DNA from: Halorubrum hochsteinianum
Lineage (GTDB): Archaea > Halobacteriota > Halobacteria > Halobacteriales > Haloferacaceae
Assembly (NCBI RefSeq): GCF_023702125.1
Contig: NZ_CP098416.1
Coordinates: 37,379 to 101,378, forward strand
Direction: 5' to 3'
DNA: 64,000 nucleotides
Shown here: in pieces, positions 5,389 to 38,196 of the stretch
Position numbering within the stretch: position 1 is the stretch's first letter
How the letters are laid out: each line of letters opens with the position of its first letter
Position numbers and translations under genes: made by a program
The notes under the pieces: generated by a model
The model's input: the letters and a program-made list of their open reading frames with translations, nothing else
What the model was told of the DNA's origin: nothing
Databases searched by the model: none

Positions 5389-5409
5389 GCCCCTCAATGG
5401 GCGAGGGGC
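5389..5409 (+). promoter_or_regulatory. Leader hairpin, member of repeated family (tfb)
   Basis: GCCCC (5389-5393) pairs with GGGGC (5405-5409) around loop TCAATGGGCGA, 38 bases before the preferred tfb ATG at 5448. It belongs to the hairpin family described in the findings. Finding it here supports the later tfb start rather than the longer upstream frame. Confidence 0.55.
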
Positions 5410-5447
5410 TCGCTGTACTGGCGGGTTCCCTGAACACGGTGAGAACG

Positions 5448-6374
5448 ATGGCAACCAGAGACATCTACGAGAGCGGATTCGACGAAGACGTCCGAACGGA
5501 ATCGAGTGCGAACCAGTGTCCTGAGTGCGACGGCCGGGTCACCACGAACGCGGTCGAAACGGTCTGCGAGGACTGTGGCCTGGTCATCAACGAACAGCGT
5601 ATCGATCACGGGCCGGAGTGGCGGGCGTACGACGACGAGGAGTGCGAACGAACGGGCGCTCCACTCACTGCGGCCCGCCACGATCGCGGCCTGTCGACGG
5701 AGATCGGTCGCGGTACCGACGCGAAGGGGAACGAACTCTCGGGGCAGAAGCGACAGCGACTCGCGCGGATGCGCCGTGAGCAGACCCGTGGTCGCTGGCG
5801 GTCGAAAGCGGAACGGAATCTCGCACACGGACTGGGCGAAGTGCGTCGGTTGGCGAGTGCCCTCGAACTCTCCAATTCGGTCCGCGACCAGGCGTGTCAG
5901 CTCTTCCGGAGCGCCCAGAACGAGGATCTGCTTCGTGGCAGATCCATCGAGGCCATCGCCGCGGCCAGCGTCTACGGGGCATGTCGGTGCAACGGCCTCT
6001 CGCGGTTGGTGGACGACGTCAGCGAGATGGCCCGCGTCGCAGAGTCACGGGTCACGAACGCGTACAAAACGCTGAACGAAGAGCTGGGCCTCCCCGCTGA
6101 GCCCGTCTCCCCCAGCATGTTCGTGCCGCGACTCGCCTCGGACCTCAAGTGTCCGAACGAAATCCGACAGCGGGCCCGAGCCCTCGCGGAACAGGCCGAG
6201 GAGCGCGGCGTCACGACGGGCGTTCATCCGGCCGGGTTCGCCGCGGCCTGCCTCTACAAGGCCGGTCGCGAAGAGGGGCGATGGCTGACGCAATCCGAGG
6301 CCGCGGACGTGGCGAACGCCTCGAAGGCGACTGTTCGGGCGCACCGGGATACGTTGGAGGAACAGGTCGCCTGA
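5448..6374 (+). CDS. tfb: Transcription initiation factor IIB (TFB)
   Basis: 308 residues. An N-terminal zinc ribbon (CPECDGR and CEDCGLV, two CxxC pairs) is followed by the B-reader region (EWRAYDDEE, GAPLTAARHDRGLST) and two cyclin-like repeats with a C-terminal helix-turn-helix (QSEAADVANASKATVRAH). TFB bridges TBP/promoter DNA and RNA polymerase. Haloarchaea carry several tfb copies, some on plasmids, and these alter promoter choice. The frame is open upstream to 5355, but the ATG at 5448 gives the normal TFB N-terminus and lies after a leader hairpin. Confidence 0.93.
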   Translation: MATRDIYESGFDEDVRTESSANQCPECDGRVTTNAVETVCEDCGLVINEQRIDHGPEWRAYDDEECERTGAPLTAARHDRGLSTEIGRGTDAKGNELSGQKRQRLARMRREQTRGRWRSKAERNLAHGLGEVRRLASALELSNSVRDQACQLFRSAQNEDLLRGRSIEAIAAASVYGACRCNGLSRLVDDVSEMARVAESRVTNAYKTLNEELGLPAEPVSPSMFVPRLASDLKCPNEIRQRARALAEQAEERGVTTGVHPAGFAAACLYKAGREEGRWLTQSEAADVANASKATVRAHRDTLEEQVA

Positions 6375-6446
6375 GGCGATCACTGTCTCTCCGTCTGTAC
6401 TGCACATCGTTCTATCCACGCTACGATTTAAACACGAAGACGAGCC

Positions 6447-7349
6447 ATGTTCTCTGTAGACTCCGCTATGAACGGTCGTTACTCCGACTTTGAGGAACTG
6501 CGGCCGACCGGCGAGGCATCCCACATTCCGGACACGAGGCTGGACGACGGGTGTGAAGGTGACCCCCGACGGCAACGTGTCGCGACGAGCGCTGGTGGCT
6601 ACCCTGATGCGCCGACGACTACCGACGGCGAATGCCGGTCCTGTGGGGCGTCAGTCCCAGACGGCCAGACGAAATGCGGGTTCTGTCTCTCTAACCATCT
6701 CGGAGGTGACGCCACTAGCACGAACGAGGCAGCGTTGACGACGTGCCTCGGCATCGTCCACCTGGTCGTCGAGTCGACGACGTTCTACGGCGCCGTGGCG
6801 AAGGGCGGCGCCGCGGCGAACCTCCTCTCCGCCAACGAGACGGAGCCGGCCGTCGACGACTACACACTCCTCTACGACCTCAACGAGGCACCGGCGCGCC
6901 AGCTGGCCGAACAATGGCCCTCACTTCCCGACGCGGTACAGGTGGCGTCAGCGGAGGGAGAGCGGCTTCTCAGTGCCGCCCGTGACCGGACTGGGTGGCA
7001 CGGGCAGGAAGCGTCGGAGGATCCGGAGCAGGGCCCGACGCGGCTCTACGACCAGCGTGGGGACGGCATCCGCAACGCGTCGCGTCTCGACGCGGTCCTC
7101 GACGACGCCGACAACGCGGTATGGCTGGTTCCAGCGATAGCGCTGACCGAATCCGCTGGCGAAGCTGGGGCTGATCAGCAGGAGTGGTCGGTACCGACGA
7201 CTCAGGAACTCGACTGTCAAACCTGTGGACGAGCGACCGACCATCGGTTCACGACCCACGAGTCGGTCCCGGATGAAGCGTGGACGGGGCAACCGATCTG
7301 GGAGTGTCGGGTGTGTGGCTCAGCTCGCTACGGCCCCAGTCTCGAGTAG
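6447..7349 (+). CDS. Zinc-ribbon protein of unknown function
   Basis: 300 residues. An N-terminal cluster CRSCGASVPDGQTKCGFC and a C-terminal CQTCGRATD ... CRVCGSARYG each give a CxxC...CxxC zinc ribbon, with an Asp/Ala-rich middle. An AT-rich box ATTTAAA at 6424-6430, about 20 bases upstream, supports a nearly leaderless start at 6447; ATG 6468 is an alternative. The gene follows tfb in the same direction, 72 bases after its stop. The two zinc ribbons suggest nucleic-acid or protein binding; no function is assigned. Confidence 0.6.
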   Translation: MFSVDSAMNGRYSDFEELRPTGEASHIPDTRLDDGCEGDPRRQRVATSAGGYPDAPTTTDGECRSCGASVPDGQTKCGFCLSNHLGGDATSTNEAALTTCLGIVHLVVESTTFYGAVAKGGAAANLLSANETEPAVDDYTLLYDLNEAPARQLAEQWPSLPDAVQVASAEGERLLSAARDRTGWHGQEASEDPEQGPTRLYDQRGDGIRNASRLDAVLDDADNAVWLVPAIALTESAGEAGADQQEWSVPTTQELDCQTCGRATDHRFTTHESVPDEAWTGQPIWECRVCGSARYGPSLE

Positions 7350-7368
7350 CGCCAGAGTTGGGCGTCGA

Positions 7369-7411
7369 TTAACCAACATCTCCACAGGTGGCTCCGGGTT
7401 TCGTTGGTTAA
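7369..7411. repeat. TTAACCAAC / GTTGGTTAA inverted repeat, copy 1
   Basis: TTAACCAAC (7369-7377) and GTTGGTTAA (7403-7411) face each other across 25 bases, just after the stop at 7349. The same half-sites with 23-25 base spacing recur at 23852, 25926, 38123 and 40855. This copy has no GC hairpin next to it. Confidence 0.7.
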
Positions 7412-7706
7412 CAGTAATAGGTAGTACGATTTCCTTGTTCAGACTCGCAGCCGCTAATTAGTGTAAAATCGGTAACTACGGATAGAATACTAATCGCTAC
7501 GTGAGGGGATGGAGAGCAGTAGTTGAGACTGGGTCACTCAATGCAGATGATCCCGATTTTCCGCGCCCACTATTCAAGTTTAGTTGTACTACATCAATTC
7601 AATTGAGTAAGTTTTATGTGACAGTCCTCACCACCAGATATTGCGGTCGAAATCGAGAGGTCCCACATCTGGGGTTAAGACCCTGGAGGATTAAGTAGTG
7701 ACAACT
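7412..7706. other. Intergenic region before nrdR
   Basis: Together with the inverted repeat, 357 bases separate the zinc protein from nrdR. I see no convincing gene. A frame open from GTG 7501 overlaps nrdR and has no recognisable content. CCAGAT (7634-7639) and ATCTGG (7667-7672) form a short inverted repeat upstream of nrdR that could be a regulatory site, although it does not resemble the bacterial NrdR box. Confidence 0.4.
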
Positions 7707-8195
7707 ATGAACTGCCCGGACTGCGGGAACGAGCGAACACGCGTCATCGATACAGGGACCAGTGCCGACGGAACCTCCGTCCGACGGCGCCGCGAATGTC
7801 AACGCTGTTCGTTCCGCTTTACGACCTACGAACGTCCGGAGTGGGAGTCACTCCAGGTGAAAAAACGCGACGGAACCATCGAATCGTTCGACCGACAGAA
7901 ACTCCGCGCAGGAATCGAGCGAGCCGTTGAGAAGCGCGAGGTGGCCGAGACAACAGTGACTGCTCTCGTCGACGATATCGAGAGCGAACTGCAAGGTCGA
8001 GAGGCACGTATCGTCTCTTCGAGTCTCATCGGCGAACTCGTCTCTGAGAACCTCCGTACGCTCGATAAGGTAGCCTACATTCGATTTGTCTCCGTTTACA
8101 AAGCATTCTCTGAGCCGCAGGAATTCCTGAGAGAACTTGACGCAGTCTTGGATGCAGAACTCGATGACTTCGAAGCCTCGAACAGCTCACTATGA
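7707..8195 (+). CDS. nrdR: NrdR-type repressor of ribonucleotide reductase genes
   Basis: 162 residues starting MNCPDCGNERTRVIDT; a GTG three codons upstream is the alternative. The N-terminal zinc ribbon (CPDC and CQRCSFRFTTYE) and the following ATP-cone (VKKRDGTIESFDRQKLRAGI, then VAYIRFVSVYKAF) are the full NrdR architecture and length. NrdR senses ATP/dATP through the cone and represses nrd promoters. Here it heads the cluster it would control, and its stop overlaps the next small ORF in ATGA. Confidence 0.93.
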   Translation: MNCPDCGNERTRVIDTGTSADGTSVRRRRECQRCSFRFTTYERPEWESLQVKKRDGTIESFDRQKLRAGIERAVEKREVAETTVTALVDDIESELQGREARIVSSSLIGELVSENLRTLDKVAYIRFVSVYKAFSEPQEFLRELDAVLDAELDDFEASNSSL

Positions 8196-8332
8196 CACAA
8201 ACATACGCAGCTCAAACAAATGTTCGGTCAATCCTTGACCGGGCGAGCATGACCCACGTCCAGACGTACAGAGAACGACGGAAACAGAAACCAACCAACA
8301 GAGAACGATTCCTCCGGGGTACGTGCCAATGA
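8192..8332 (+). CDS. 46-residue ORF coupled between nrdR and the R2 gene
   Basis: ATG at 8192 overlaps the nrdR stop (ATGA), and the TGA at 8330-8332 overlaps the ATG of the R2 gene in the same way. The product begins MTQTYAAQTNVRSILDRASM and is basic towards the end (YRERRKQKPTNRERFLRG). Exact overlaps at both ends make translational coupling likely. It could be a small ribonucleotide reductase accessory protein or simply a coupling ORF. I know no family for it. Confidence 0.6.
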   Translation: MTQTYAAQTNVRSILDRASMTHVQTYRERRKQKPTNRERFLRGTCQ

Positions 8333-9339: not shown

Positions 9340-9341
9340 CG

Positions 9342-11181: not shown

Positions 11182-11412
11182 ATGGGGAGTCTTTCCGCGC
11201 CGGCGAGCGGTGAGGCGCTTCCGATGGAGCAAGAGTTCAAACAAGGCTACCGGATGCATCGGATACTCAGCAATCTCAACCGACTCGACGTCGACCGATT
11301 GGACGACGCGGATCGAGAGCGAGTCGAGACCGCGAGAGACCTCCTGGAAGAGGTGAGCCTTCTCACGCGGCCGAGCGACGGAGCCGGGGCGGACGCCCAC
11401 GCAGATTCCTAA
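11182..11412 (+). CDS. Small helical protein, unknown
   Basis: 76 residues, or 62 if translation starts at ATG 11224 (MEQEFKQGYRMHRIL). The core SNLNRLDVDRLDDADRERVE followed by TARDLLEEVSLLTR is amphipathic and acidic, with normal haloarchaeal codon bias. It stands alone between nrdA and the next leader hairpin. No family is recognised; it may be a real small protein of the plasmid gene pool. Confidence 0.45.
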   Translation: MGSLSAPASGEALPMEQEFKQGYRMHRILSNLNRLDVDRLDDADRERVETARDLLEEVSLLTRPSDGAGADAHADS

Positions 11413-11460
11413 CTGGAGTCCCCGGCCACGACCAGGGAGGCAACTCTCGCGTCGGTTTAT

Positions 11461-11485
11461 CGCCCCCGACAGGAATGCGGGGGCG
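11461..11485 (+). promoter_or_regulatory. Leader hairpin, repeated family
   Basis: CGCCCCC (11461-11467) pairs with GGGGGCG (11479-11485), a perfect 7-bp stem with loop GACAGGAATGC. It lies 18 bases before ATG 11504 and after GGTTTAT. Confidence 0.55.
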
Positions 11486-11503
11486 ACCCCGTGAACTCCA
11501 GAC

Positions 11504-11884
11504 ATGGCGACACTGCAAGCTGCGACGACGTCGACTGGCGCGATCGTATCGGATCCGCAGGCAGTCCGCGAGCTCTGCGAGAGCTACTGCTTCGGGACGC
11601 TCGACTGGGAAGTCACCGAGGACGGTGAACTTACCATCTGGGGACACGACGATTTCGAGGTGTACGAGGCGCGGGAGAACGGCCTGCCGGACTACGAAGG
11701 CGGGATCGTGACCCACGAATTCCTGCGAGAACTCGCCGACCACCTCGAAGATGACGAGGAACTCGATATCCAGACAGCGGGGTTTACCAAGTGTCGCTTC
11801 CCCGTGCTGGCGAAACGGTACGTCGTTCGCGACGGTAAGGTCCTTCACGCAGACCTCAGTTCCCCCGACCCGATCGACGAGTAG
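11504..11884 (+). CDS. Haloarchaeal plasmid-type hypothetical protein
   Basis: 126 residues, acidic. The sequence alternates short strands and helices (LCESYCFGTLDWEVTEDGEL, then a segment ending FRELADHLEDDEELD), ending KRYVVRDGKVLHADLS. No signal peptide, membrane segment or catalytic motif is visible. It is preceded by a leader hairpin and followed within 70 bases by another hairpin-led gene, so it is one unit of the modular array. Function unknown. Confidence 0.6.
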   Translation: MATLQAATTSTGAIVSDPQAVRELCESYCFGTLDWEVTEDGELTIWGHDDFEVYEARENGLPDYEGGIVTHEFLRELADHLEDDEELDIQTAGFTKCRFPVLAKRYVVRDGKVLHADLSSPDPIDE

Positions 11885-11895
11885 CGTTGTTCGTC

Positions 11896-11914
11896 CCCCG
11901 GGAGGGGTGCGGGG
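11896..11914 (+). promoter_or_regulatory. Leader hairpin, repeated family
   Basis: CCCC (11896-11899) pairs with GGGG (11911-11914) around loop GGGAGGGGTGC, 38 bases before ATG 11953. The GAGGGGTGC loop matches the copies at 21749 and 27063. Confidence 0.55.
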
Positions 11915-11952
11915 CAATCCAGTCGTGGGGCGCCCTGCGAGGTGATTGGTCA

Positions 11953-12615
11953 ATGGGTCACCGCGCACTTGTTGCGTACGAACGGACAGACGGACAGTAC
12001 ACGCTCCACTACAGCCATTGGGGTGCAGCAAACCTCAAGCTCAAGCGCCGAATTTCGGCTGAATCGCCGTTCGGTGGCGACGACACCGACTCCAAGTGGG
12101 CGAAACAGTTGCTGGCGGAACTAGCTGATGGCCTCGAAGCAGATGCCGTCGACGGCTACCTCGCCGGCGAGAATCGACCATCGACGGTCGTCAAGCCGAA
12201 GCCCCGCGCCACCGGGCTCACCCTCGACGAGATCGTCGCTGACCATCTCGACTACCTCCACCACGAGGCGTTCTTCGTGGTGTCGACGACGTTCGAGGTG
12301 ACCGCCTATCGGACGCTGTGGTTCGGGCTCCAGTACGACTCGGAGACAGTCGAACAGGGAGAGACGGTCGGGAACGGCGCGCTCGCGACGGTGCGCTGGT
12401 ACGACGGCGAGCCGGTCGGCGACGGCCACCTGCAGGGCCAGTTCGCAGCCCTCAAAGACGTCGTCGGCGATATGCTCGACAAGGGCGTCTTCACGCCGTC
12501 GACGGCGAGACAGTACCTGAAACGGAAGCTGGCCGAGCGAGTCGGAGACCGACAGGAGCTGCTCATTCCGACCGGAGAGTCACCCTTCGAGAAGGCGAGC
12601 CTGAACCACTCCTAG
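11953..12615 (+). CDS. Conserved haloarchaeal hypothetical protein (DUF6735-like)
   Basis: 220 residues from ATG 11953; the frame extends upstream through the leader hairpin, which argues for this start. The N-terminus MGHRALVAYERTDGQYTLHY followed by SHWGA is what I recall of the DUF6735 family. The middle has VVSTTFEVTAYRTLWFGLQY, and the C-terminus is helical (STARQYLKRKLAERVGDRQE). It is probably a soluble cytoplasmic protein. No catalytic signature is evident. The DUF number is from memory. Confidence 0.6.
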   Translation: MGHRALVAYERTDGQYTLHYSHWGAANLKLKRRISAESPFGGDDTDSKWAKQLLAELADGLEADAVDGYLAGENRPSTVVKPKPRATGLTLDEIVADHLDYLHHEAFFVVSTTFEVTAYRTLWFGLQYDSETVEQGETVGNGALATVRWYDGEPVGDGHLQGQFAALKDVVGDMLDKGVFTPSTARQYLKRKLAERVGDRQELLIPTGESPFEKASLNHS

Positions 12616-14701: not shown

Positions 14702-14928
14702 CTGACCGAAACGTCGGATACAGAACCCATAGGGGTTTTGGATATCCATCGGTGAGCAGGTTACTCGAAGCCAACTGCTGTTTTTCAGGGGCCGGAATGG
14801 GTGAGCCCCACCATAGGCTCGTGATTCGATGACCTCAGAGGACGGCCTAGTTCCACTAATTCGAAGCTGTAGCCACTTGACCCACACAGAGTCCAGATAT
14901 TTATAAATAAAACCGTTAATACCTGAAA

Positions 14929-17066: not shown

Positions 17067-17240
17067 ATAATTGGGTAGCCAATACTCATCGACCGTAATC
17101 CCGGTAGATCCCCACATTTCTGAGCTCTACTGAGCGATTCCTACCTCCCCAGTACTGAATGAATCCACCCCACTGGTGCAGAATGTGAAACCTATTGCAA
17201 GAGCTACTTTGAATCATCGTCTTCTCCGGTAGCTGTCTGT

Positions 17241-17265
17241 GCGCGCCAGCGAGAAGGTGGCGCGC
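17241..17265 (+). promoter_or_regulatory. Leader hairpin, repeated family
   Basis: GCGCGCCA (17241-17248) pairs perfectly with TGGCGCGC (17258-17265); the loop GCGAGAAGG keeps the GAGA-GG core. A second hairpin follows at once: GTCGGT (17266-17271) with ACCGAC (17278-17283). The start of the next gene is 37 bases beyond the first stem. The stem sequence is unrelated to the CCCC/GGGG copies, so pairing rather than sequence is conserved. Confidence 0.6.
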
Positions 17266-17302: not shown

Positions 17303-17794
17303 ATGCATATGGTCATCTACGCCCTCGTAGAGGCATCGACGGAAAACGAAGCATTGACTGCGGGGAAAACGGTGTTCAATCGATTGGTTGGCGCTGAGCC
17401 GCATTCCTGCGCAATATTCGACTATTTTGTGACCTTCGACGAGGAGGACACGTCCGTTGCGGGGAAGGCGCGATGGGGTGAGCTCCCGACTGCAGCCCCC
17501 GTCGACTCTGAAGACGGCGAAGACCTGCTCGAGCATGGCTGGGAGGCGACGAAGGAGGAATTCGAGCGTAATCTCGACCGGGTGAAGGAGGCCATCGACG
17601 AGCTCTCCGACGAGGAGATCATGCGCGACGAGGACCTCGCCCGGCACGCCTTCCACAAGGTCGGTGCGTACGATGGCCCGACGATCTTCCTGTACACCGA
17701 ACACGGAACCGGCATTCGTCACCGTGGACAGCTGGATCGACTCCTCGAGGAGAGTGAAGAGCTCTGGATCGTACCCGCTGACGTCCACTTCTGA
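17303..17794 (+). CDS. Hypothetical protein, plasmid module
   Basis: 163 residues from ATG 17303 (MHMVIYALVEASTENEAL); the frame is open upstream, but the leader hairpin precedes this ATG. The N-terminus suggests a ferredoxin-like alpha/beta fold (VIYALVEAS ... GKTVFNRLV ... IFDYFVTF), followed by an acidic helix and IFLYTEHGTGIRHRGQLDRL. The stop is three bases before the next start, so the two genes are co-transcribed. Function unknown. Confidence 0.6.
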   Translation: MHMVIYALVEASTENEALTAGKTVFNRLVGAEPHSCAIFDYFVTFDEEDTSVAGKARWGELPTAAPVDSEDGEDLLEHGWEATKEEFERNLDRVKEAIDELSDEEIMRDEDLARHAFHKVGAYDGPTIFLYTEHGTGIRHRGQLDRLLEESEELWIVPADVHF

Positions 17795-18163: not shown

Positions 18164-18192
18164 GTGAGTGAGCATTGGACGCTGTTTTTCGG

Positions 18193-18215
18193 CCGGGCAC
18201 GAAGTGGTGGCCCGG
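18193..18215 (+). promoter_or_regulatory. Leader hairpin, repeated family
   Basis: CCGGGC (18193-18198) pairs with GCCCGG (18210-18215); the loop ACGAAGTGGTG keeps the GA...GGTG pattern. TTTTT precedes it and ATG 18237 follows after 21 bases. Confidence 0.6.
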
Positions 18216-18236: not shown

Positions 18237-18632
18237 ATGACCCTCGAAGTACTAGACCGACACAGCGAGGCACTGTTCGAGTTCCTCTGGTGCCCCGTCT
18301 GCGGGCAGGAGGTCTTCACTCACATCCCCTTCGAGGGGGTGTTCTGCAAGAACTGCAACACCCAGGTCGAACTCCAAGAATCCCGCGAGACACGCGGCTA
18401 CGAGGAGGCCGTTCTCGCCTGCTTCGATTCTACCACGACCTGGAACCTTCACGTCGACGAGAAACTGCGCCGCGACCTGCCTGATGGGTCGGCCCGCGTG
18501 AAGATCCTCGGCGCACCGGGCGCCTACGAGGTCGACTGGTGGAGTCCGGAGCCAGGTGAGGATTGGGAGCCCGTCGAGCGCGGCGAGTTCGACGACGTCG
18601 AGGAACCATCAGAGGTGTCGCACCTGGCGTAG
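18237..18632 (+). CDS. Small zinc-binding hypothetical protein
   Basis: 131 residues from ATG 18237, placed after the leader hairpin. WCPVCGQEVFTHIPF ... FCKNCNTQVEL gives a four-Cys zinc ribbon at residues about 20-45; the C-terminal half is acidic and Trp-rich (YEVDWWSPEPGEDWEPVE). It is convergent with the gene at 18655-19518. Function unknown. Confidence 0.6.
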   Translation: MTLEVLDRHSEALFEFLWCPVCGQEVFTHIPFEGVFCKNCNTQVELQESRETRGYEEAVLACFDSTTTWNLHVDEKLRRDLPDGSARVKILGAPGAYEVDWWSPEPGEDWEPVERGEFDDVEEPSEVSHLA

Positions 18633-19518: not shown

Positions 19519-19681
19519 ACGCATACCTTTGGGCTGGAACAGCATCAGTTTCCGAGCAAGGATCCCACCCGACTGCAGTCTTGCGAATTTCGGAATCCAT
19601 TTTTAACCAGGTTTAAGTTATCCAGTGACAACCCTTCGTCGAGATTCCAGCGACTCCACTCGATCCAGGAGAGGTTGTTTC

Positions 19682-19706
19682 TGCGCCGGCGATGGGTGCC
19701 GGCGCA
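19682..19706 (+). promoter_or_regulatory. Leader hairpin, repeated family (longest stem)
   Basis: TGCGCCGGC (19682-19690) pairs perfectly with GCCGGCGCA (19698-19706), nine base pairs around GATGGGT. ATG 19726 is 19 bases downstream and GTTGTTT precedes the stem. Confidence 0.65.
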
Positions 19707-19725: not shown

Positions 19726-20298
19726 ATGTCGACACGAAGTCAACTCCGATTCATCCAACGGAGCGAGACCGCAGGCGAACAGTCCGATACCGACCGCATC
19801 GCACAAATCTACCGACACTCGGACGGCTATCCCGATAGCGTCCTCCATGACCTTAATCAGCTGAAGCAGCTGCTCGACGAGACACGAACAGAGCGCGGGC
19901 CTGCGTACGCCGCTGCCCAGTTCCTGTTCCTCGACACACTTTCGACGATGACCCTCTACGTGGACGAAGGGCGTGATCGGAGCATCCACGCTGACCACCC
20001 CTCGGATCTCCTCGAGCCGGACAATATGGAGCACCTCGACCAGCCGATGTTCCTGCTCGGACACGGCGTCGAGAACCCAGCCGACGGCATTCACGGCGAC
20101 GAGGAGTACCTCTACGTCGTCGAGCTCCCGACCCGGAACCCGTTCGAGGAGCCGTCCGAGTGGACCGTCAAGGTGAGTGGTCATTCCGCGTTCCCCCGGT
20201 GGGATGGTCCGACCGAGGAAGCCTTCGAGCGGGCTAGCTGGCAGTTCCACGGCCCGCTTGAGCACGCGCTCGAAGAGCTGGTCGCTGAGCCGGCGTAA
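19726..20298 (+). CDS. Hypothetical protein, plasmid module
   Basis: 190 residues. The acidic sequence includes QIYRHSDGYPDSVLHDLNQL, QLLDETRTERGPAYAAAQFL and a central EEYLYVVELPTRN. The early segment RIAQIYRHSDGYPDS recurs in many haloarchaeal plasmid proteins of unknown role. It has a leader hairpin and is convergent with the Mrr-like gene, 13 bases apart. No catalytic motif found. Confidence 0.6.
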   Translation: MSTRSQLRFIQRSETAGEQSDTDRIAQIYRHSDGYPDSVLHDLNQLKQLLDETRTERGPAYAAAQFLFLDTLSTMTLYVDEGRDRSIHADHPSDLLEPDNMEHLDQPMFLLGHGVENPADGIHGDEEYLYVVELPTRNPFEEPSEWTVKVSGHSAFPRWDGPTEEAFERASWQFHGPLEHALEELVAEPA

Positions 20299-21676: not shown

Positions 21677-21748
21677 CCTCAATTATGTGGACAGTACGTT
21701 GCAACTGCCAAATACGTTGCCGAACGCTACGCCGTCCTGTTTGTTGAA

Positions 21749-21770
21749 CCCCCTGAGAGGGGTGCGGGGG
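21749..21770 (+). promoter_or_regulatory. Leader hairpin, repeated family
   Basis: CCCCC (21749-21753) pairs with GGGGG (21766-21770) around TGAGAGGGGTGC, 25 bases before ATG 21796. The tail GTCACCG ... CGCGAGCAACG is nearly the same as after the orphan copy at 27063, so two copies share the downstream sequence as well. Confidence 0.65.
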
Positions 21771-21795: not shown

Positions 21796-22482
21796 ATGAA
21801 CGGGAATGTACCTGTAGCCAGTTCGGAATCGGTTCCAGTCGCATCGCCAGGTCAGGCTCACCGAGACGCAGTCGAATACGTCGGCTTCCGCGTCGACGGC
21901 CAAGCCGTCGTGCTGAACCTCTCGGAGCATCGGCGACTCTCCCTCGAGCGCAGTCTGGACCTCGTCAACCACAGTCCAAGCGGGTTCGAGTGGGGGTACA
22001 GTGGTAGCGGGCCCGCCCAGCTCGCGTGCGCGCTCCTCCTCGACTACTACGACGATGAGCAGTTCGCCCGTGAGCACTACATCGCGTTCCGGAATCAGGT
22101 AGTTTCGCAGCTGGAGTGCGACAGTGCCGCGGCGTGCTGGCACCTCCCCGGCGAGGAGATCAACGCCGCGATGGCGACCCTTACCGACGACGTCGTCGCC
22201 CTCACCGACGGCGGACGGCCGTCACCGACGCTCCCCGAGAACTGGCGAGCCGTCTCTCGCCAGGACCGGCGGGTCTTCCAGCGCGCTGATCGCGACCACT
22301 ACATCGTACTCGGGGATGGAACCGACGAGTGGCTGGTCGTACTCTGCAGCCAAGGCGACCGTGCATATCCTGCCCCGCTCGCACATCGGACGGTTGCCGA
22401 GGATGCTGACGTGGAACAGGTAATCCGGGAACTCGCCGAAGTGAGCAACGACCTCATCGAACCCCCGGAGGGGGAGCACTGA
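21796..22482 (+). CDS. Hypothetical protein (DUF6166-like), first gene of overlapping operon
   Basis: 228 residues. The central segment GFEWGYSGSGPAQLACALLL followed by DYY is the feature I associate with DUF6166. The second half contains DRDHYIVLGDGTDEWLVVLC. The stop shares one base with the ATG of the next small ORF (TGATG), so translation is coupled through four genes to 23814. Function unknown; the DUF assignment is from memory. Confidence 0.6.
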   Translation: MNGNVPVASSESVPVASPGQAHRDAVEYVGFRVDGQAVVLNLSEHRRLSLERSLDLVNHSPSGFEWGYSGSGPAQLACALLLDYYDDEQFAREHYIAFRNQVVSQLECDSAAACWHLPGEEINAAMATLTDDVVALTDGGRPSPTLPENWRAVSRQDRRVFQRADRDHYIVLGDGTDEWLVVLCSQGDRAYPAPLAHRTVAEDADVEQVIRELAEVSNDLIEPPEGEH

Positions 22483-23851: not shown

Positions 23852-23893
23852 TTAACCAACACTCCCCGCCATTTAGAGAGGGGCGTTGGTTAA
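23852..23893. repeat. TTAACCAAC / GTTGGTTAA inverted repeat, copy 2
   Basis: Half-sites at 23852-23860 and 23885-23893, 24-base spacer. CTCCCC and GGGGCG just inside the arms add further pairing. The next leader hairpin starts 15 bases after it. Confidence 0.7.
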
Positions 23894-23908: not shown

Positions 23909-23934
23909 GCGCCCGGGAGAGGGGCGCAGGGCGC
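23909..23934 (+). promoter_or_regulatory. Leader hairpin, repeated family
   Basis: GCGCCC (23909-23914) pairs with GGGCGC (23929-23934); loop GGGAGAGGGGCGCA. TTTTT precedes it and ATG 23941 follows after only six bases. Confidence 0.6.
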
Positions 23935-23940
23935 GAGACG

Positions 23941-25146
23941 ATGCAGTCGCACGTCGACGAGGATTCCTTAAGTGAGGTGACTGAGATGAAAGATCCAGAG
24001 TCCAGAACCATCTTCGCTGGCGTCGATGGGCGTACCGACACCGAACTACCCGAGTGGTACCGAGAGCGTCACGGGGATGCAGACCCCGTGACCTTCGGCG
24101 AGGCGGTTCGTGATCTTCCGCAGGCCGTCGAGACGACCGTGGCGTACCAGAATCCCTACACCGACGAGTGGGTTGAGACGGAGCGGTTCAACGCACTCGT
24201 CGAGCCGAGTCGCGCTCGGGAGCAGGCCCGAGATGAGGACGCGGACACGGACCCGTTGTTCCACGTTCCCACTGACAGCTACTCGATCATCAACCCGGTC
24301 GACGTCTACGGGCCGCTGGAGGAGGTTCTCCGCGAGGAGACCATCGACGGGACGCCGCTGGGTGACGTGATGTTCGGCGAGATTCGGCGCTACCGGGGCG
24401 GCGGCGAGGTGCATATGGACATCATGTTCGACGGCCTCGAGGTGCGCCTCCCCGGCCGGTCGGATCCGATCACGATGGGCGTCACGTCGGGCTACGACTT
24501 CTTCGGCGAGCACGCCGTCTACGTGGAGGGGTTCGCCCAAGACGGCTACTGCTCGAACACGATGCGTTCGCTCACCGACAAGGAGGTCATCAAACACGTC
24601 GGCGACGTCCGGAACTTCCGGACCTGGTGGGAGGAACTCCTCGCACAGGTCGAACTCGTCGCCGATGACCTCTTCGAGTTCATCCGGGACGCCCAGGACA
24701 TCGACCTCGACTTTTCGGAGCTCCCGTTCACTGTCACGGAGTTCTACACCCTGCTGGGCTTCCCGGACTACCTGGCCGAGCGTGCCGCCGGCGATGCAGA
24801 AGCCAATGCGGCGTCACCCTTCGAGATCGATATGTGGACGCTGCATTCCGGCGCGACGTACGCTCTCACCCACTTCTTCCAGGGGAAAGAGGGGGCATCC
24901 CTCGATCAGTACGTTCGGATCGCCAACGACATTCTGTTCAACCCGGAAGGCACGATCGAGCGCGTCGAGCAGGCGTACGAGCAGCAGCTAGAGGCGGACG
25001 GTGACGACGGGTCACAGGCGTCGCTGGCCGGCGAGCGAGCGCTGGCGAGCATCGAGCGCGTCAGCGACGACCTGCAGGAGAAAGTCGAACAGTTCGAAGA
25101 ACGCGAGGACGCGCTGCGCGAGCGGTTCCAAGAGGCGATGGGCTAA
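23941..25146 (+). CDS. Large conserved plasmid-type hypothetical protein
   Basis: 401 residues from ATG 23941, after the hairpin. The region from about 110 to 220 (TDSYSIINPVDVYGPLEEVL, then GEVHMDIMFDGLEVRLPGRS) resembles in outline the DUF932 family of plasmid and phage proteins, with a conserved aromatic-rich start and a later YCSNTMRSL. The C-terminal 60 residues are a coiled coil (IERVSDDLQEKVEQFEERED). DUF932 proteins have no firm function. The match is weak and from memory. Confidence 0.6.
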   Translation: MQSHVDEDSLSEVTEMKDPESRTIFAGVDGRTDTELPEWYRERHGDADPVTFGEAVRDLPQAVETTVAYQNPYTDEWVETERFNALVEPSRAREQARDEDADTDPLFHVPTDSYSIINPVDVYGPLEEVLREETIDGTPLGDVMFGEIRRYRGGGEVHMDIMFDGLEVRLPGRSDPITMGVTSGYDFFGEHAVYVEGFAQDGYCSNTMRSLTDKEVIKHVGDVRNFRTWWEELLAQVELVADDLFEFIRDAQDIDLDFSELPFTVTEFYTLLGFPDYLAERAAGDAEANAASPFEIDMWTLHSGATYALTHFFQGKEGASLDQYVRIANDILFNPEGTIERVEQAYEQQLEADGDDGSQASLAGERALASIERVSDDLQEKVEQFEEREDALRERFQEAMG

Positions 25147-25916: not shown

Positions 25917-25925
25917 GTTCTGGTC

Positions 25926-25967
25926 TTAACCAACATATTCCGCGTGGATTTCCTTATTGTTGGTTAA
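25926..25967. repeat. TTAACCAAC / GTTGGTTAA inverted repeat, copy 3
   Basis: Half-sites 25926-25934 and 25959-25967, 24-base spacer, immediately before the hairpin-led gene at 26040. Confidence 0.7.
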
Positions 25968-25990
25968 TTGCCTGAGTCTCGGTTTTTCGG

Positions 25991-26011
25991 GCCCCTGAAT
26001 GGGTGCGGGGC
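25991..26011 (+). promoter_or_regulatory. Leader hairpin, repeated family
   Basis: GCCCC (25991-25995) pairs with GGGGC (26007-26011); loop TGAATGGGTGC. GGTTTTTCG precedes it and the ATG is 28 bases downstream. With the inverted repeat this is one of the complete examples: repeat, T tract, hairpin, gene. Confidence 0.65.
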
Positions 26012-26039: not shown

Positions 26040-27113
26040 ATGTCCCTCGAGCTGAGATCCAGCGCCAGCACCGCTCGCGAAATCGCCGCCGCCAGACAGG
26101 CAGACTACGTGGCGTTTCTGCATCGAGCCCCGTTTGTCGTCGACGCTGTCGACCTCGGCTTCCTTCCCGGCTTTCGCGAGGATTGTGGGTATCAGGAGGC
26201 GCAGTATCAGAACCTTAGCCTCCCCGTCGGGATGCTCGACAACGATTTCCGGAATCCCGATCTGGAGCGGTTCGTCGACCGTTTCTTCGAGTACGAACCT
26301 CAGGTCGGGGTCATCGGGGACGTCGACGAAATCGACGACGTCGACGCCCACGTCGCTGCTGCTCGTGAGATCCAAGCGAGCTACCCCGAGGCCGAGCTCA
26401 TCGTCGTTCCGAAGTCGCGGGCGGTAATCGACGCGATCCCCGAGACCCTCGTCCTCGGATATTCACGAGGATACGCCGACCGCCTGGCCCACGAGTTCTC
26501 CGACCCAGCCGATTGGAGAGGGCGGCGCGTCCACATCCTCGGCGGGAGTCCGCCCAAGCAGCTCGATGCCATTCGACAGCTTACCCGACCGACACTCACG
26601 GACGAGCCACCAGCCGACATCGTCGGCGTCGACTGGAACGGGCTGCATCGCGGCGCACAGTTCGGTGAGTTCTGGACGGCCGACGGCTGGGACGACAGCG
26701 GTCGCGACGCCGACCACGTCACCGTCCGAAAGACGGTGCGCCACAGCCTCGCTCGCGTCCGTGAGTTTTGGAGGGCCCACGGAATCTGGCCCGAAACGAC
26801 ACCGCAAAACGAGGGGCTCAACGTCGAGTACGAGGGTCCGAGTCCTGCCGATCTCGAGGACGCTACCTGTACCGAGTGCGGGACGAACGTCTGGCGAACT
26901 CGCCGCGGCCCGTACGTGGCCGAATACGATACCGGCGCAAGCTGTGGATACTGCAGCTACGAAGGCTACTTCAGCCACCGCCACCGGAACAACCTGGAGG
27001 AGATCGCCAGCGAGCAGAGCGTCTACCTCCCGCCGGCGTGGCTTCGCGACCTGTTTTTCGTGCCCCCAGAGAGGGGTGCGGGGGTCACCGCCCGCGAGCA
27101 ACGATGCTGTTGA
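26040..27113 (+). CDS. TIM-barrel-like protein with zinc site, possibly TGT/DpdA-like
   Basis: 357 residues from ATG 26040. Successive strands (PQVGVIGDVDEID, EAELIVVPKS, ETLVLGYSRG, RRVHILGGSPPKQLDAIRQL, DIVGVDWNG) suggest a TIM barrel; the GGSPPKQL step recalls tRNA-guanine transglycosylase and its DNA relative DpdA. A C-terminal zinc site is CTECGTNVWRTRRG ... CGYCSYEGYFSHRHRNN. A DpdA-like enzyme would insert deazaguanine into DNA. I recall the family as DUF6610. The last codons run through a hairpin copy, so the C-terminus (GAGVTAREQRCC) may be altered by the adjoining insertion. Confidence 0.5.
   Translation: MSLELRSSASTAREIAAARQADYVAFLHRAPFVVDAVDLGFLPGFREDCGYQEAQYQNLSLPVGMLDNDFRNPDLERFVDRFFEYEPQVGVIGDVDEIDDVDAHVAAAREIQASYPEAELIVVPKSRAVIDAIPETLVLGYSRGYADRLAHEFSDPADWRGRRVHILGGSPPKQLDAIRQLTRPTLTDEPPADIVGVDWNGLHRGAQFGEFWTADGWDDSGRDADHVTVRKTVRHSLARVREFWRAHGIWPETTPQNEGLNVEYEGPSPADLEDATCTECGTNVWRTRRGPYVAEYDTGASCGYCSYEGYFSHRHRNNLEEIASEQSVYLPPAWLRDLFFVPPERGAGVTAREQRCC
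27005..27075 (+). repeat. Copy A of duplicated gene end
   Basis: These 71 bases, the 3' end of the TIM-barrel gene with the start of its hairpin, recur with scattered substitutions at 31582-31652. The two copies bracket the AT-rich insertion. Confidence 0.75.
27063..27084 (+). promoter_or_regulatory. Orphan leader hairpin at insertion junction
   Basis: CCCCC (27063-27067) pairs with GGGGG (27080-27084) around AGAGAGGGGTGC, after TTTTT at 27054-27058. The following ATG (27105) opens only ten codons before a stop, so the gene it led has been lost. Base composition becomes AT-rich from about 27115 onward. Confidence 0.6.
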
Positions 27114-30959: not shown

Positions 30960-31013
30960 CAGGAATTGCGCACTCGGCCAAACAACTAATAATCCGGAAG
31001 TGAAACAAAGGGT

Positions 31014-33059: not shown

Positions 33060-33097
33060 TTGTTCTTGACTGTCTAAATGTCTTTTGGACATTAACG

Positions 33098-33241: not shown

Positions 33242-33310
33242 AGCCCGGATTGCCGAGCCATGCTGTCGGTTACACCCTTTTAGGGGTGGCTTTCGCTCGC
33301 CATGTGTCAC

Positions 33311-33473
33311 CTTGCGACCGACACGCCTGGTGACGTCGAGCGGTTCGACGAGTTCCTCGAGTACCTCGTCTCGGTTGGCTTTGCGGACGAACGTCACGAG
33401 CTCCGCTGACCGACAGAGCGGTTTTTTGAACGCCCCTGAGGGGTGCGGCGCGGTCTGAACAGACGCAGTCGCC
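33311..33473 (+). pseudogene. Decayed copy of the 36744 gene end and its downstream leader
   Basis: 163 bases match 36993-37155 without gaps and with about seven substitutions by eye. It covers the last 33 codons of the gene plus the T tract and hairpin (33431-33450, with the second hairpin GTCTG/CAGAC at 33453-33464). No gene follows the hairpin here. The rest of the gene was removed when the tnpB element entered. Confidence 0.8.
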
Positions 33474-34535: not shown

Positions 34536-35328
34536 TATTTCAACACCTCATTGGGAATCACGACAAATGAAGGCCCATCGGGGATGTTAAGATTGCTAGC
34601 CTTTTCGAAATAATCAACGATCGACCGTCCAAATGGATCTCTTGTGTCCGCAGGGACAATCGCGTTGTTACGACTGCCATAGATATCAACCAAACCATGG
34701 TTAAATACGTTGAGAATAGGCGTCACTGATTCTCTCACTACTTTAGTGTCTCCATTTTCATTCCGTTCCAAAACGTTGATTTTCTGATCAGAAATTTCGA
34801 TTTTTCTTTCCTCACCAGGAGAGACATCTATTACTTGATCATCTACTTCAAATCGGATTTTTCCATCGTCCCTTTCCTTGGTTACTACTGTTGGAGTGGA
34901 GTATTCATCTTCAAGTGTTAGTGTAGTTTCTTCAAGATAGCGGTAATCTCGGTCAATAATCAGTGATTTTTGAGAGGGGGAATCAAAATCAACGCTTCCC
35001 AATTTATTGTATTTTTTTCCGGTGGTGACGATAGTTTTATTATTTTTGATTGTTTCAATGGGAAATTTATTAACGAAAGTAATGAATCTTCAATAATATA
35101 ATCTGCTACATATCGATGCCCCTGCGATCTCGGGTAGTCGGGAGCACCTTTATGTGTCACTGAAGTTTCGATGAATCCTCGCTTTCCAAGGCTAAACCGA
35201 TCAACCGCCTCGTCGGAGGCTTCGACAACAGTGACGCTTGTTCCAGCAAGTGTCGCTGTCGTAGCGAGGAAACTCCGTCTGCCGATCTGTACAGCTTTCT
35301 TCCGCGAGGATCTTTGGTTAGATCCCAT
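34535..35328 (-). pseudogene. Tat-signal protein gene broken by a frameshift
   Basis: The N-terminal frame (35328 to about 35085) gives a twin-arginine signal, IGRRSFLATTATLAGTSVTV, and runs to YVADYIIEDS, after which it loses sense and ends at 34960. The next frame opens exactly there and reads FITFVNKFPIETIKNNKTIV, then GSVDFDSPSQKSLIIDRDYR, to the stop at 34535. Joined, they make an exported protein of about 260 residues. The break is near 35085. It may be a true mutation, a programmed event or a sequencing error. No family is recognised. Confidence 0.65.
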
Positions 35329-35468
35329 GAAATCTTATTAGCAAACTAACTACTTATAATTTACGGGCAGAATCTAGTACATTAATTAATTCGAACGTAG
35401 ATGTAACTATTAGACGTGTAAAAATACATTCTACACAAAATATAAGAACCGGTGGGAAAAGAATCTGT

Positions 35469-36245
35469 ATGAATCGTCGAGCGTTTCTCGCAACATCGGC
35501 GATTGGGACTAAAATTGCGCTCAGCGGCTGTCTATTCGGTAGACCGTCTTCAATTGAATCGAAGGAGCATCCCGAGGCTCCAGATGAGTTAGATGAGGAG
35601 TCTGCCATTCGGTTCGCAAAAATGTATGAAGAAGTAACCAGATATAATGAATATATCCAGAATGATAGCAATATAATTGACCTAGATTACGATTGCTACG
35701 CCGCTATTGAACGCCAGAGCGGAAATGCGTTCTGCGTTGTTGTACAATGTGCCTTTTCGGTCGAGTCTCGTGATGAAAGCGGACGGTCAACTGGCGAAGG
35801 AATTACCAACCCGACTCTGTACTACCTCACCCGAGGAGAATTCATACGAGCAGAGACTAAGCGCATCAGGGCCAGGACCCCGACTGAGTCGAGCAACGAC
35901 AGATACCGTGGGATTCGATTAGTCAACTTTAGCCAGAAAGAGCAAACAGTAGAAATTGAGATAGCACCAGCTAGCAGTCGAACGGATAGTAGGAAAACAC
36001 AGTTTTCCGAAACCTACACTGTTAGACCTCATAATGGATTCACAATAGAACGTGCCGCAATAAGCGATGGGATCTACTTTGTAACTGTAACCTCTGATAA
36101 TAGCTTGTCTGTTACTCACGAATGGGAAGTACCTGGTCAGGACGGTCCAGATTTGGGAAGGATGTGGTCCAGTACTGAGATTAATCTCGGGGCATACATC
36201 TTACCAAACGGAGAACTCGAAGTACGCGACATTCCAGAGCAATAA
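35469..36245 (+). CDS. Tat-exported lipoprotein, unknown
   Basis: 258 residues. MNRRAFLATSAIGTKIALSG followed by Cys is a short twin-arginine signal with lipobox. The mature part is acidic at first (HPEAPDELDEESAIRFAKMY) and then beta-rich (QTVEIEIAPASS, FTIERAAISDGIYFVTVTSD), like small haloarchaeal envelope lipoproteins. It diverges from the frameshifted Tat gene across 140 bases. Function unknown. Confidence 0.65.
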   Translation: MNRRAFLATSAIGTKIALSGCLFGRPSSIESKEHPEAPDELDEESAIRFAKMYEEVTRYNEYIQNDSNIIDLDYDCYAAIERQSGNAFCVVVQCAFSVESRDESGRSTGEGITNPTLYYLTRGEFIRAETKRIRARTPTESSNDRYRGIRLVNFSQKEQTVEIEIAPASSRTDSRKTQFSETYTVRPHNGFTIERAAISDGIYFVTVTSDNSLSVTHEWEVPGQDGPDLGRMWSSTEINLGAYILPNGELEVRDIPEQ

Positions 36246-36683
36246 CGACTTTCGTATCGGCGCTACAGACGACATTCTTTGATTGCTCTCCAGCGCCCAC
36301 GACACGGAATTTCCGAACCTTGTCGTCGATGTCCCGTGTATCAGTCACTCGACGGTGTGGCTGGCTGTCGAGCTTCTCAACAGTATCGGTGCGATTCCCA
36401 TTCAAGAGTCTCCGGAGCTGAATTACACTACGAAGGGCTCAGACCGGTTTCAAAAAACGATCCGATTCTTGCCATTCCACAGTCAGAGTTCCATATACCG
36501 AATTGTCCGTACGTTATTCGCGTCCAAGCCACTCTCACCGACGCCGACTACGTTAACAAAATCCCGGTATAGTTATCACCGGGAGAGTCGCTCGGGGCAA
36601 GGCAGACCTACAGTGCGACATCGATTGGTTGGTCTTCATTGATGCTGACCGGTCAAAAGCCCTCCCACGTAACTGGGTGGCCT
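36246..36683. other. Region with a possible gene remnant
   Basis: A frame open from TTG 36283 to 36642 begins with protein-like sequence (TVWLAVELLNSIGAIPIQES, then SDRFQKTIRFLPF) and turns into low-quality sequence near its end. It has no ATG start or recognisable domain, so I treat it as a remnant. CCTCCCACGT...GGCCTG at 36661 looks like a shortened version of the end of the TIM-barrel gene (27030-27053). Confidence 0.35.
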
Positions 36684-36743
36684 GTTTTTCGTGCTCCCGG
36701 AGAGCGCCAGAGCTTCTTCGAAAGCTTTCCGAGGTGACGTCCA
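36684..36743 (+). promoter_or_regulatory. Leader of the 36744 gene, variant hairpins
   Basis: GTTTTTCG is followed by GCTC (36693-36696) pairing with GAGC (36702-36705) and by AGCTT (36711-36715) with AAGCT (36722-36726). Bases 31630-31689 are a diverged copy. The single-hairpin form of the family is replaced by two small stems. Confidence 0.5.
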
Positions 36744-37091
36744 TTGAGTCAACAACAGAGTCCCGACAACGTCTCGATCGACGAGATCCCAGTCGATATC
36801 GACACCACGCAATCAGCGGAGGTCGATCCCGCCGACGTCCCCGACGAAATCGAATCCATCACCCGTGGGCTCGCCGGTGAGCAGCCGCCGACGAATCCCA
36901 TCGTGGTTCTCAAGGCGGCTCGCTGGTGGTATCTACACGGCAAGGGCGGCACGGATCCCGCCTTCCAGTGGGCCATCGAGTGGGCGCGTCATCTTGCGAC
37001 CGACACGCCCAGTGACGTCGGGCGGTTCGACGAGTTCCTCGAGTACCTCGTCACGGTCGGCTTTGCGGACGAACGCCACGAGCTCCGCTGA
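36744..37091 (+). CDS. Small hypothetical protein, TTG start
   Basis: 115 residues. No ATG is available; TTG gives MSQQQSPDNVSIDEIPVDID directly after the leader. The core NPIVVLKAARWWYLHGKGG, then FQWAIEWARHLATDTPSDVG, is helical and Trp-rich; the end FDEFLEYLVTVGFADERHEL is duplicated in decayed form at 33311. It is upstream of the ArdC-like gene. Function unknown. Confidence 0.6.
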   Translation: MSQQQSPDNVSIDEIPVDIDTTQSAEVDPADVPDEIESITRGLAGEQPPTNPIVVLKAARWWYLHGKGGTDPAFQWAIEWARHLATDTPSDVGRFDEFLEYLVTVGFADERHELR

Positions 37092-37112
37092 CCGACAGAG
37101 CGGTTTTTTGAA

Positions 37113-37146
37113 CGCCCCTGAAGGGTGCGGCGCGGTCTGAACAGAC
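37113..37146 (+). promoter_or_regulatory. Leader double hairpin before the ArdC-like gene
   Basis: CGCC (37113-37116) pairs with GGCG (37129-37132) around CCTGAAGGGTGC, then GTCTG (37135-37139) pairs with CAGAC (37142-37146). TTTTTT precedes. ATG 37179 is 32 bases on. The same double structure is kept in the decayed copy at 33431-33464. Confidence 0.6.
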
Positions 37147-37178
37147 GCAGTCGCCGTGAACTCGATTCGGTGATCACG

Positions 37179-38126
37179 ATGTCTACGACCAGAGACTCGT
37201 CGGTCTCCTTCGACCAGACCGACACGCGATCAGACGAGATGAACAGTACCATCGAACAGTGGATCGACGACCTCGTCGCCGGCGTCGACGACGCGCAGTC
37301 CAGCGCGGAGTTCCAGGAGTGGCTCGATGTCCAGAGTCGTTTCCACGACTACTCCTACCGGAACACGCTCCTCATCAAGCGGCAGTGTCCCGAGGCGAGC
37401 CGGGTGGCGGGCTACCGGACGTGGCAGGAGGAGTTCGACCGCCACGTCAAGGAGGGTGAGTCGGCCATCTGGATCTGGGCGCCGATCATCACCAAGCAGT
37501 GCCCGGAGTGCGAGAACTCGCCGAGCTACCACGAGGACAGCGACTGTGAGTACGACGAGACGCCGCCCGAGGAATGGTCGGAGGGCCTAGTCGGATTCAA
37601 GCCTGCGCCGGTGTTCGATGTCTCCCAGACCGAGGGCGAACCGCTTCCTGATCTCGACACGGAAGCGACCGGGGACGCCGGCGATCTCGTCGAACAGTTG
37701 ACTGCCGCCGCTGATGAGCTCGGCGTGACGGTGCGGATCGTTCCAGTCGAGGAGTGGACACACGGCGAGGCGAAGGGCATCTGTGAGCAGCTGAGTCTCG
37801 TCGATATGCAGCCGCGTGTCGAGGTTCGGGATCGGGAGAACGAGGCCGACCTTGCGCGGACGCTGGTTCACGAGTACGCCCACGCCCTGCTCCACTTCGA
37901 TGTCGACGACGACACCGAGCGGGCGAAACGCGAAATCGAGGCCGAAGCCGTCGCGTACGTCGTCGGGCGCTACTGTGGGTTGGACACCAGCGGGTCGGCG
38001 TTCTACCTCGCTGCGTGGGAGTCGGACGATTCCGAGGTCGTTCGCGAGCGCCTCGGCCGGATTAGTCGAACGGCAGAAGAACTCATCGACGTTCTCGAGA
38101 GCGAATCCTCGTCCCAACCTGATTAA
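37179..38126 (+). CDS. ArdC-like protein: ssDNA-binding domain plus HExxH metallopeptidase
   Basis: 315 residues from ATG 37179; ATG 37239 is possible. Residues about 20-110 resemble the ArdC N-terminal domain (FHDYSYRNTLLIKRQCPEAS, GYRTWQEEFDRHVKEGESAI, WIWAPI) with an inserted zinc pair CPEC. The C-terminal part has LARTLVHEYAHALLHFDVDD and EIEAEAVAYVVGRYCGLD, an HExxH...E zincin site. ArdC proteins of conjugative plasmids protect incoming single-stranded DNA against restriction. That fits a mobile haloarchaeal replicon with restriction genes nearby. Its stop lies within an inverted repeat. Confidence 0.75.
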   Translation: MSTTRDSSVSFDQTDTRSDEMNSTIEQWIDDLVAGVDDAQSSAEFQEWLDVQSRFHDYSYRNTLLIKRQCPEASRVAGYRTWQEEFDRHVKEGESAIWIWAPIITKQCPECENSPSYHEDSDCEYDETPPEEWSEGLVGFKPAPVFDVSQTEGEPLPDLDTEATGDAGDLVEQLTAAADELGVTVRIVPVEEWTHGEAKGICEQLSLVDMQPRVEVRDRENEADLARTLVHEYAHALLHFDVDDDTERAKREIEAEAVAYVVGRYCGLDTSGSAFYLAAWESDDSEVVRERLGRISRTAEELIDVLESESSSQPD

Positions 38127-38164
38127 CCAACAGAGTGATGGGCCCCTTCCGTTCTGTTGGTTAA
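38123..38164. repeat. TTAACCAAC / GTTGGTTAA inverted repeat, copy 4
   Basis: Half-sites 38123-38131 and 38156-38164 with a 24-base spacer; AGA and TCT extend the arms to 12 bp. The arm overlaps the ArdC-like stop codon. Confidence 0.75.
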
Positions 38165-38172
38165 TTTTTTCT

Positions 38173-38196
38173 GCGCCCGCGGAGGGGCGGAGGCGC
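38173..38196 (+). promoter_or_regulatory. Leader hairpin, repeated family
   Basis: GCGCC (38173-38177) pairs with GGCGC (38192-38196); loop CGCGGAGGGGCGGA. TTTTTT precedes directly after the inverted repeat, and ATG 38217 is 20 bases on. Confidence 0.6.

Follow-up and report, generated by a model that had tools for sequence, protein, structure and literature searches.

The window analyzed here, the whole stretch of 64,000 nucleotides at positions 37,379 to 101,378 of contig NZ_CP098416.1 of Halorubrum hochsteinianum, belongs to C2, a 101,378-bp contig of a two-contig genome, and carries a family of short, structurally conserved hairpins on its + strand, most of them just before genes. Read 5′ to 3′, the repeat unit consists of a GTNTNTY motif (the T motif, the sole AT-rich feature of the unit), 2-5 nt, a stem of 5-9 bp around an 11-12 nt loop (ngRRrGGGTGc) and the closing arm. 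The T motif lies at a near-fixed distance of 13-15 nt from the inner end of the 5′ arm, and GGG[T/C]G is placed near the 3′ end of the loop. An earlier note on this DNA (the original prediction) had listed 13 such hairpins, all of which are present at positions exact or off by 1-2 nt. The stem and loop boundaries given for them did need re-registering, after which most window copies have a common 5-bp inner stem and an 11-12 nt loop (14 nt in two copies). The list was also incomplete, missing at least two copies in the window (11182-11218 and 14774-14809) and three elsewhere on the plasmid (C2:27790, 28435 and 33453).

The hairpin structure is under selection. A covariance model, R1, was built from nine window copies and finds twelve copies in the window at E < 0.1, all on the + strand, the best match on the - strand having E = 1.8. 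Because most window copies served to build R1, independent support comes from data outside the window. The copy at 18193 scores poorly with R1, yet it is a perfect 6-bp hairpin that is kept before DUF7567 in relatives. In an alignment of the 150 best matches (110 distinct), which is itself fitted to the structure, 95.1% of stem cells are paired, compared with 70.9% after shuffling. The covariation score of this alignment is 0.499 against 0.109 +/- 0.016 for shuffled data, a value reached by none of 500 shuffles, and it falls to 0.01-0.02 when the partner is shifted by one column. An alignment-free test gives the same picture: among 206 independent copies found by sequence motifs alone, 104 have at least four of five pairs, whereas swapping the 3′ arms between copies yields a mean of 45.6 paired copies and a maximum of 64 in 1000 trials. 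The stem changes are mostly G-C/C-G exchanges (GCGCC/GGCGC, CCCCC/GGGGG, CCGGG/CCCGG, GTCCC/GGGAC). The claim that compensatory stem changes around a conserved loop mark a selected structure is thus borne out statistically, by both the covariation score and the arm-swap test. The window copies and the genes behind them are collected in Table 1.

Table 1. Hairpin units and the genes behind them in the window (L numbers are our handles for loci).
Feature	Position	Strand	Support or remark
T motif and hairpin, GCCCC/GGGGC inner stem, before TFB gene	5379..5409	+	R1 E=1.9e-5
TFB (transcription initiation factor IIB family) gene	5448..6374	+	Pfam TFIIB E=1e-35
Hairpin missed by the original prediction, before 62-aa open reading frame (ORF; 11224-11412)	11182..11218	+	orthologous to L027:8853, L035:12663, L036:11126
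T motif and hairpin, CGCCCCC/GGGGGCG	11448..11485	+	R1 E=1.8e-5
126-aa gene behind hairpin, no Pfam family	11504..11884	+	
T motif and hairpin, CCCC/GGGG	11880..11915	+	R1 E=4.4e-6
DUF6735-type gene behind hairpin	11953..12615	+	synteny: orthologue of L027:9623-10285, which is DUF6735
Hairpin missed by the original prediction, GGGGC/GCCCC, before truncated ORF	14774..14809	+	orthologous to L027:10305, L028:15102
T motif and hairpin, GCGCGCC/GGCGCGC	17228..17265	+	R1 E=0.0014
Gene behind hairpin, no Pfam family	17303..17794	+	
T motif and hairpin, CCGGGC/GCCCGG	18186..18215	+	orthologues in relatives
DUF7567 gene behind hairpin	18237..18632	+	Pfam E=2.9e-68
T motif and hairpin, TGCGCCGGC/GCCGGCGCA	19669..19706	+	R1 E=9e-6
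Gene behind hairpin, no Pfam family	19726..20298	+	
T motif and hairpin, CCCCC/GGGGG; upstream restriction endonuclease gene oppositely oriented	21734..21770	+	R1 E=1e-4
DUF6166 gene behind hairpin	21796..22482	+	Pfam E=6e-27
T motif and hairpin, GCGCCC/GGGCGC, 14-nt loop	23895..23934	+	R1 E=0.011
Gene behind hairpin, no Pfam family	23932..25146	+	
T motif and hairpin, GCCCC/GGGGC, best-conserved orthologous site	25976..26011	+	R1 E=5e-7; before DUF6610 in most of 80 loci
DUF6610 gene behind hairpin	26040..27113	+	Pfam E=9e-79
Hybrid hairpin before truncated ORF	27048..27084	+	5′ half as L027:27046, 3′ half as 21749
Hairpin duplicating the ArdC leader, no gene behind	33415..33452	+	
T motif and hairpin, CGCC/GGCG, before ArdC-like gene	37097..37134	+	R1 E=8e-4
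ArdC-type anti-restriction protein gene	37179..38126	+	Pfam ArdcN and Peptidase_M78
T motif and hairpin, GCGCC/GGCGC, 14-nt loop, before gene downstream of ArdC	38159..38197	+	R1 E=0.09; orthologues
Gene behind hairpin, SWIM-type CxC..CxH motif by eye, no Pfam match in this copy	38217..39032	+	L125: SWIM gene behind hairpin

The two copies described as orphans are accounted for by rearrangement. The one at 27063 is a hybrid of two leaders beside a truncated gene; the hybrid leader (27048-27110), which resembles L027:27046 in its 5′ half and the DUF6166 leader at 21749 in its 3′ half, adjoins an AT-rich insertion. This suggests that leader copies recombined through the loop they have in common. 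The one at 33431 is a duplicated ArdC leader without its gene: the leaders at 33380-33452 and 37062-37134 are near-identical, ArdC stands behind the second only, and the duplication flanks AT-rich inserted DNA.

Beyond the window, the region is conserved in 164 plasmid records from many haloarchaeal genera, and the family recurs on plasmids and integrated elements across haloarchaea, in 33 of 59 genomes and 21 of 31 genera. In the genome of H. hochsteinianum itself, all nine R1 matches at E < 0.1 lie on the + strand of C2, and the best chromosomal match has E = 0.135. Two weak matches on its chromosome (C1:284020, - strand, 23.1 bits; C1:225605, + strand, 21.5 bits) are perhaps remnants of integrated elements. 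The strand distribution is strict: R1 matches share the strand of the DUF6610 gene in 96 of 97 cases in the plasmid loci first examined and in 300 of 300 in 80 GTDB loci around DUF6610, and all 92 pairs of hairpin neighbours within 30 kb have a common strand, no inverted gene unit carrying a hairpin. A model-free scan for the T motif followed by any perfect 5-bp stem returns 458 sites on the + strand and 116 on the - strand; with 97 in shuffled sequence, the - strand is therefore near background. On the whole of the 155-kb plasmid pHAR02, the 17 R1 matches (E < 1) lie on one strand in a single sector of about 42 kb, and the other 113 kb, with the type IV secretion system (T4SS) operon and metal-resistance cargo, have no R1 match. 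Integron-like attC sites and miniature inverted-repeat transposable elements (MITE) or repetitive extragenic palindromic (REP) repeats are ruled out by the fixed place before backbone genes, the stem covariation and the absence elsewhere on the plasmid; bacterial-type terminators are ruled out by the T tract, which is on the wrong side of the hairpin. Rfam 15 has no match above gathering score in the window, and two exact patterns, a narrow test of viral origin, found no match in IMG/VR. A full-text search of open-licence papers returned neither a description of the hairpin element nor an archaeal promoter in single-stranded DNA (ssDNA).

Of 81 copies in eight annotated plasmid loci, 71 stand 5-60 nt before an annotated start codon, and at several of the 10 exceptions the plasmid table has no gene at the site or the gene is interrupted. 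Directly behind the hairpins are, among others, genes for TFB, ArdC-type anti-restriction protein, DUF6166, DUF6610, DUF6735 and DUF7567; where the TrbL gene of an integrated element is diverged, the hairpin precedes TFB, SWIM and DUF6735 genes. Same-strand cargo genes inside the sector (metal pumps, merA) have no hairpin. The genes had been described as unrelated, but they are not simply so: they belong to the backbone of transfer elements and include anti-restriction ArdC and a TFB. The plasmids encode their own TFB and TATA-box-binding protein (TBP), and ardC of R388 acts in the recipient cell (PMC7213743).

The placement 5-60 nt before start codons also favours the main rival to a reading in ssDNA, namely an RNA leader. 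In this reading the hairpin is part of the RNA, in the 5′ untranslated region or between cistrons, and a plasmid protein, a small RNA or the ribosome would bind it to control how the backbone regulon is translated or how stable its RNA is. It is also supported by the covarying structure before genes, by confinement to the backbone rather than co-directional cargo genes, and by the likeness of the loop GGGTG to part of the Shine-Dalgarno sequence. The absence of inverted gene units that carry the hairpin (none in 92 neighbour pairs) and of an Rfam match counts against it, as do the promoter and folding results below, and we consider an RNA leader unlikely.

The hairpins are linked to the transfer machinery. 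Of the 59 haloarchaeal genomes, 33 carry hairpins and 32 carry TrbL_3 (27 both, 6 the hairpin only, 5 TrbL_3 only, 21 neither; Fisher P = 1.7e-6 for these related genomes, uncorrected for shared descent). In 30 of 32 elements the hairpins lie on the same strand as the TrbL closest to them; in the other two, the copies are 40-79 kb away from it. On pHAR02 the T4SS operon encodes VirB4, TrbL/VirB6, a HerA-like ATPase and a PriS-like primase. Just before it (L118:30409-32283) stand an annotated exodeoxyribonuclease VII pair (xseA/xseB) and a TATA-box-binding protein, which, going by annotation, may reflect handling of single-stranded DNA within the transfer module. A search for an origin of transfer (oriT) beyond the ArdC/SWIM end gave a conserved 107-aa ORF (window 40909-41232) and a perfect 26-nt palindrome, GAGGGGGCGAAGTACTTCGCCCCCTC, at 41493-41518, and no more. 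The palindrome lies between the 107-aa ORF and a 410-aa ORF in the orc1/cdc6 position, next to which it looks more like a replication site than an oriT; a replication or partition site is possible. The ORF at 3765-5330, beside the TFB gene, has a weak Piwi-domain match (E=0.003), and a Piwi protein is also present in the homologous L032 sector; the ORF may belong to a prokaryotic Argonaute that is split or diverged.

The one-strand distribution and the presence of a PriS-like primase and a primase-associated protein in the T4SS operon would also suit single-strand initiation sites, at which the plasmid primase recognises the hairpin on the transferred or lagging strand and starts complementary-strand synthesis. 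Bacterial Frpo reportedly also makes primers, going by the title of a 1997 paper by Masai and Arai. Priming does not need a position 5-60 nt before start codons (71/81), however; the primase-associated protein occurs in 15 of 59 genomes against 33 with hairpins, and the T4SS and cargo sectors lack hairpins, so that a role in priming seems improbable to us.

Usual haloarchaeal promoters carry TTWT and a TFB recognition element (BRE) (PMC4983044). In 95 independent regions upstream of hairpins there is no AT peak, and TATA-like hexamers occur at a rate of 0.09, the same as after shuffling (0.09); extending the search to -250 still reveals no TATA box. As a control, 69 other genes of pHAR02 have an AT peak at -30..-26 and TATA-like hexamers at twice the chance rate. 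Transcription must therefore come from read-through far upstream, or the hairpin unit is itself the start signal. Operon read-through is possible for many copies, though there is no TATA within 250 nt; at 21749 it cannot supply transcription, since the upstream gene is oppositely oriented. This absence of a TATA promoter, even at 21749 with its divergent upstream gene, weighs against the RNA leader.

A start signal could also act in double-stranded DNA. GTNTNTY would then be an unusual TATA-like element for the plasmid TFB/TBP and the inverted repeat a protein site or cruciform, with zygotic induction through loss of a repressor. The T motif as the only AT-rich feature, its near-fixed spacing to the hairpin, the plasmid-encoded TFB and TBP and the repressor-type mechanism known in p576 (PMC8708921) agree with such a promoter or operator, as does an extra inverted repeat, TTAACCAAC..GTTGGTTAA, in some leaders. 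This repeat, with about 25 nt between its halves, precedes three window hairpins (at 23855-23888, about 25925-25967 and about 38131-38163) and is kept before DUF6610 in most of 80 loci; it is perhaps an operator through which a plasmid repressor acts on the hairpin-led genes. The hairpin arms, however, are fully variable yet complementary, and a protein reading double-stranded sequence would not require pairing, which leaves a double-stranded signal with little probability.

Predicted folding differs between the strands. For the minimal unit, the covarying helix has a predicted pairing of 0.27 in RNA and 0.43 in ssDNA of the sense strand, against 0.59 in RNA and 0.54 in ssDNA of the complementary strand, whereas 240 unrelated control hairpins from the same loci are symmetric (0.60/0.62 as RNA, 0.68/0.70 as DNA). 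With longer flanks all values are lower, and the sense strand is still below its complement. In sense RNA the helix probability is 0.08-0.27, and the helix belongs to the minimum free energy structure of only 9-29 of 95 copies, short of the stability looked for in an RNA leader. Within the limits of folding programs and the unknown effects of salt, this asymmetry makes a sense-RNA leader less likely and favours the template strand. The original prediction had left open whether the family is an RNA leader or a structured DNA site; because of the strict one-strand distribution, the coupling to the T4SS strand, the lack of an upstream TATA and a helix that is poor in sense RNA and better on the complement, the evidence leans to DNA, with the RNA leader still a rival.

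We therefore favour, with a probability of about 0.45, the reading that the hairpins act as expression signals in ssDNA, and that the sector they mark on T4SS plasmids and integrated elements of haloarchaea is the establishment (leading) region. The plasmid would enter the recipient as one strand, and GTNTNTY and the hairpin would fold on the template strand of the entering DNA. Transcription of the next gene would start before second-strand synthesis, TFB, anti-restriction and other entry proteins would be made early, and expression would cease when the DNA has become double-stranded. For this model to hold, the strand that is transferred must be the template strand, which gene order and strand permit. 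The selected structure, its confinement to one strand and one sector, the T4SS coupling, the placement before genes and the lack of TATA are observed, and better folding on the template strand is predicted. From these we infer ssDNA as the active form, transcription rather than priming as the output and a hairpin sector that enters first; gene content suggests that this sector is the leading region.

Several points weigh against this reading. The one-strand bias is in part confounded with the shared direction of the backbone genes, and no hairpin stands immediately before the RPA gene (an SSB analogue) in the sector. In six genomes hairpins occur without a TrbL_3 match, and no relaxase is found among the scanned T4SS genes, nor any oriT. 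Counting wobbles (G-T against A-C mismatches in stems) did not decide the functional strand, because loop length leaves the stem register ambiguous. The hairpin is too small for a double-stranded TATA box and therefore could not act in the manner of Frpo with known archaeal factors, so a different recognition mechanism must be assumed. The family is known here from sequence and predicted folding.

To our knowledge, how archaeal plasmid DNA is transferred and survives entry is largely unknown. Somewhat more tentatively than the favoured reading, these hairpins may be the first single-strand-specific expression signal in archaea, a compact hairpin promoter without a double-stranded TATA box, read on the entering strand and serving an establishment regulon of anti-restriction and transcription-factor genes on most haloarchaeal transfer plasmids. 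If so, haloarchaeal T4SS elements would move single-stranded DNA. This raises the question of whether archaeal transcription can start from ssDNA hairpins. As a strand-marked element found in over half of the haloarchaeal genomes sampled, the unit would mark the establishment regulon, predict the strand and end that enter first, and point to many uncharacterised candidate anti-defence genes (DUF6166, DUF6610, DUF6735, DUF7567 and others).

Known systems share parts of this arrangement. The promoters of the phage N4 virion RNA polymerase are, like the haloarchaeal unit, small short-stem ssDNA hairpins just before the transcription start; they differ in a 3-nt loop and in serving a single-subunit viral polymerase, of which none was seen on the hairpin-bearing elements. 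The intergenic repeat promoters of halovirus HF2 are likewise repeated units before haloarchaeal genes but are AT-rich double-stranded promoters, whereas the hairpin units have no AT-rich promoter (PMC8707807). EGeRS1 of the pLS20 family is also a repeated, conserved, noncoding inverted-repeat unit before establishment genes, including ardC, with no evident strong housekeeping promoter; it is 400-600 bp long, belongs to Bacillus plasmids, and there the transferred strand is the non-template strand (PMC8708921). The Frpo/ssi elements of F and ColIb-P9 resemble the present family in that several one-strand hairpins per T4SS plasmid lie before leading-region genes, near anti-restriction genes (PMC11541004; PMC8708921). 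Frpo is long, and its stem mimics -35/-10 elements for sigma-70 RNA polymerase, whereas the haloarchaeal unit has about 30 nt, a stem of 5-9 bp, a G-rich loop and no archaeal TATA/BRE. Multicopy hairpins upstream of genes on one strand are thus common to both, the leading-region status being deduced here from gene content; the unit is not classed as Frpo because 5-9 mostly G-C pairs hold no folded double-stranded core promoter. In the bacterial leading region, early genes are expressed from Frpo/ssi hairpins that lie on the transferred strand (PMC11541004; PMC8708921), and such ssDNA promoters need that strand as template (PMC8708921). With hairpins on one strand, a link to T4SS, an anti-restriction gene, a TFB of its own and no TATA, the haloarchaeal sector matches this logic, and by analogy its hairpin unit may be the archaeal counterpart of the bacterial single-strand promoters.

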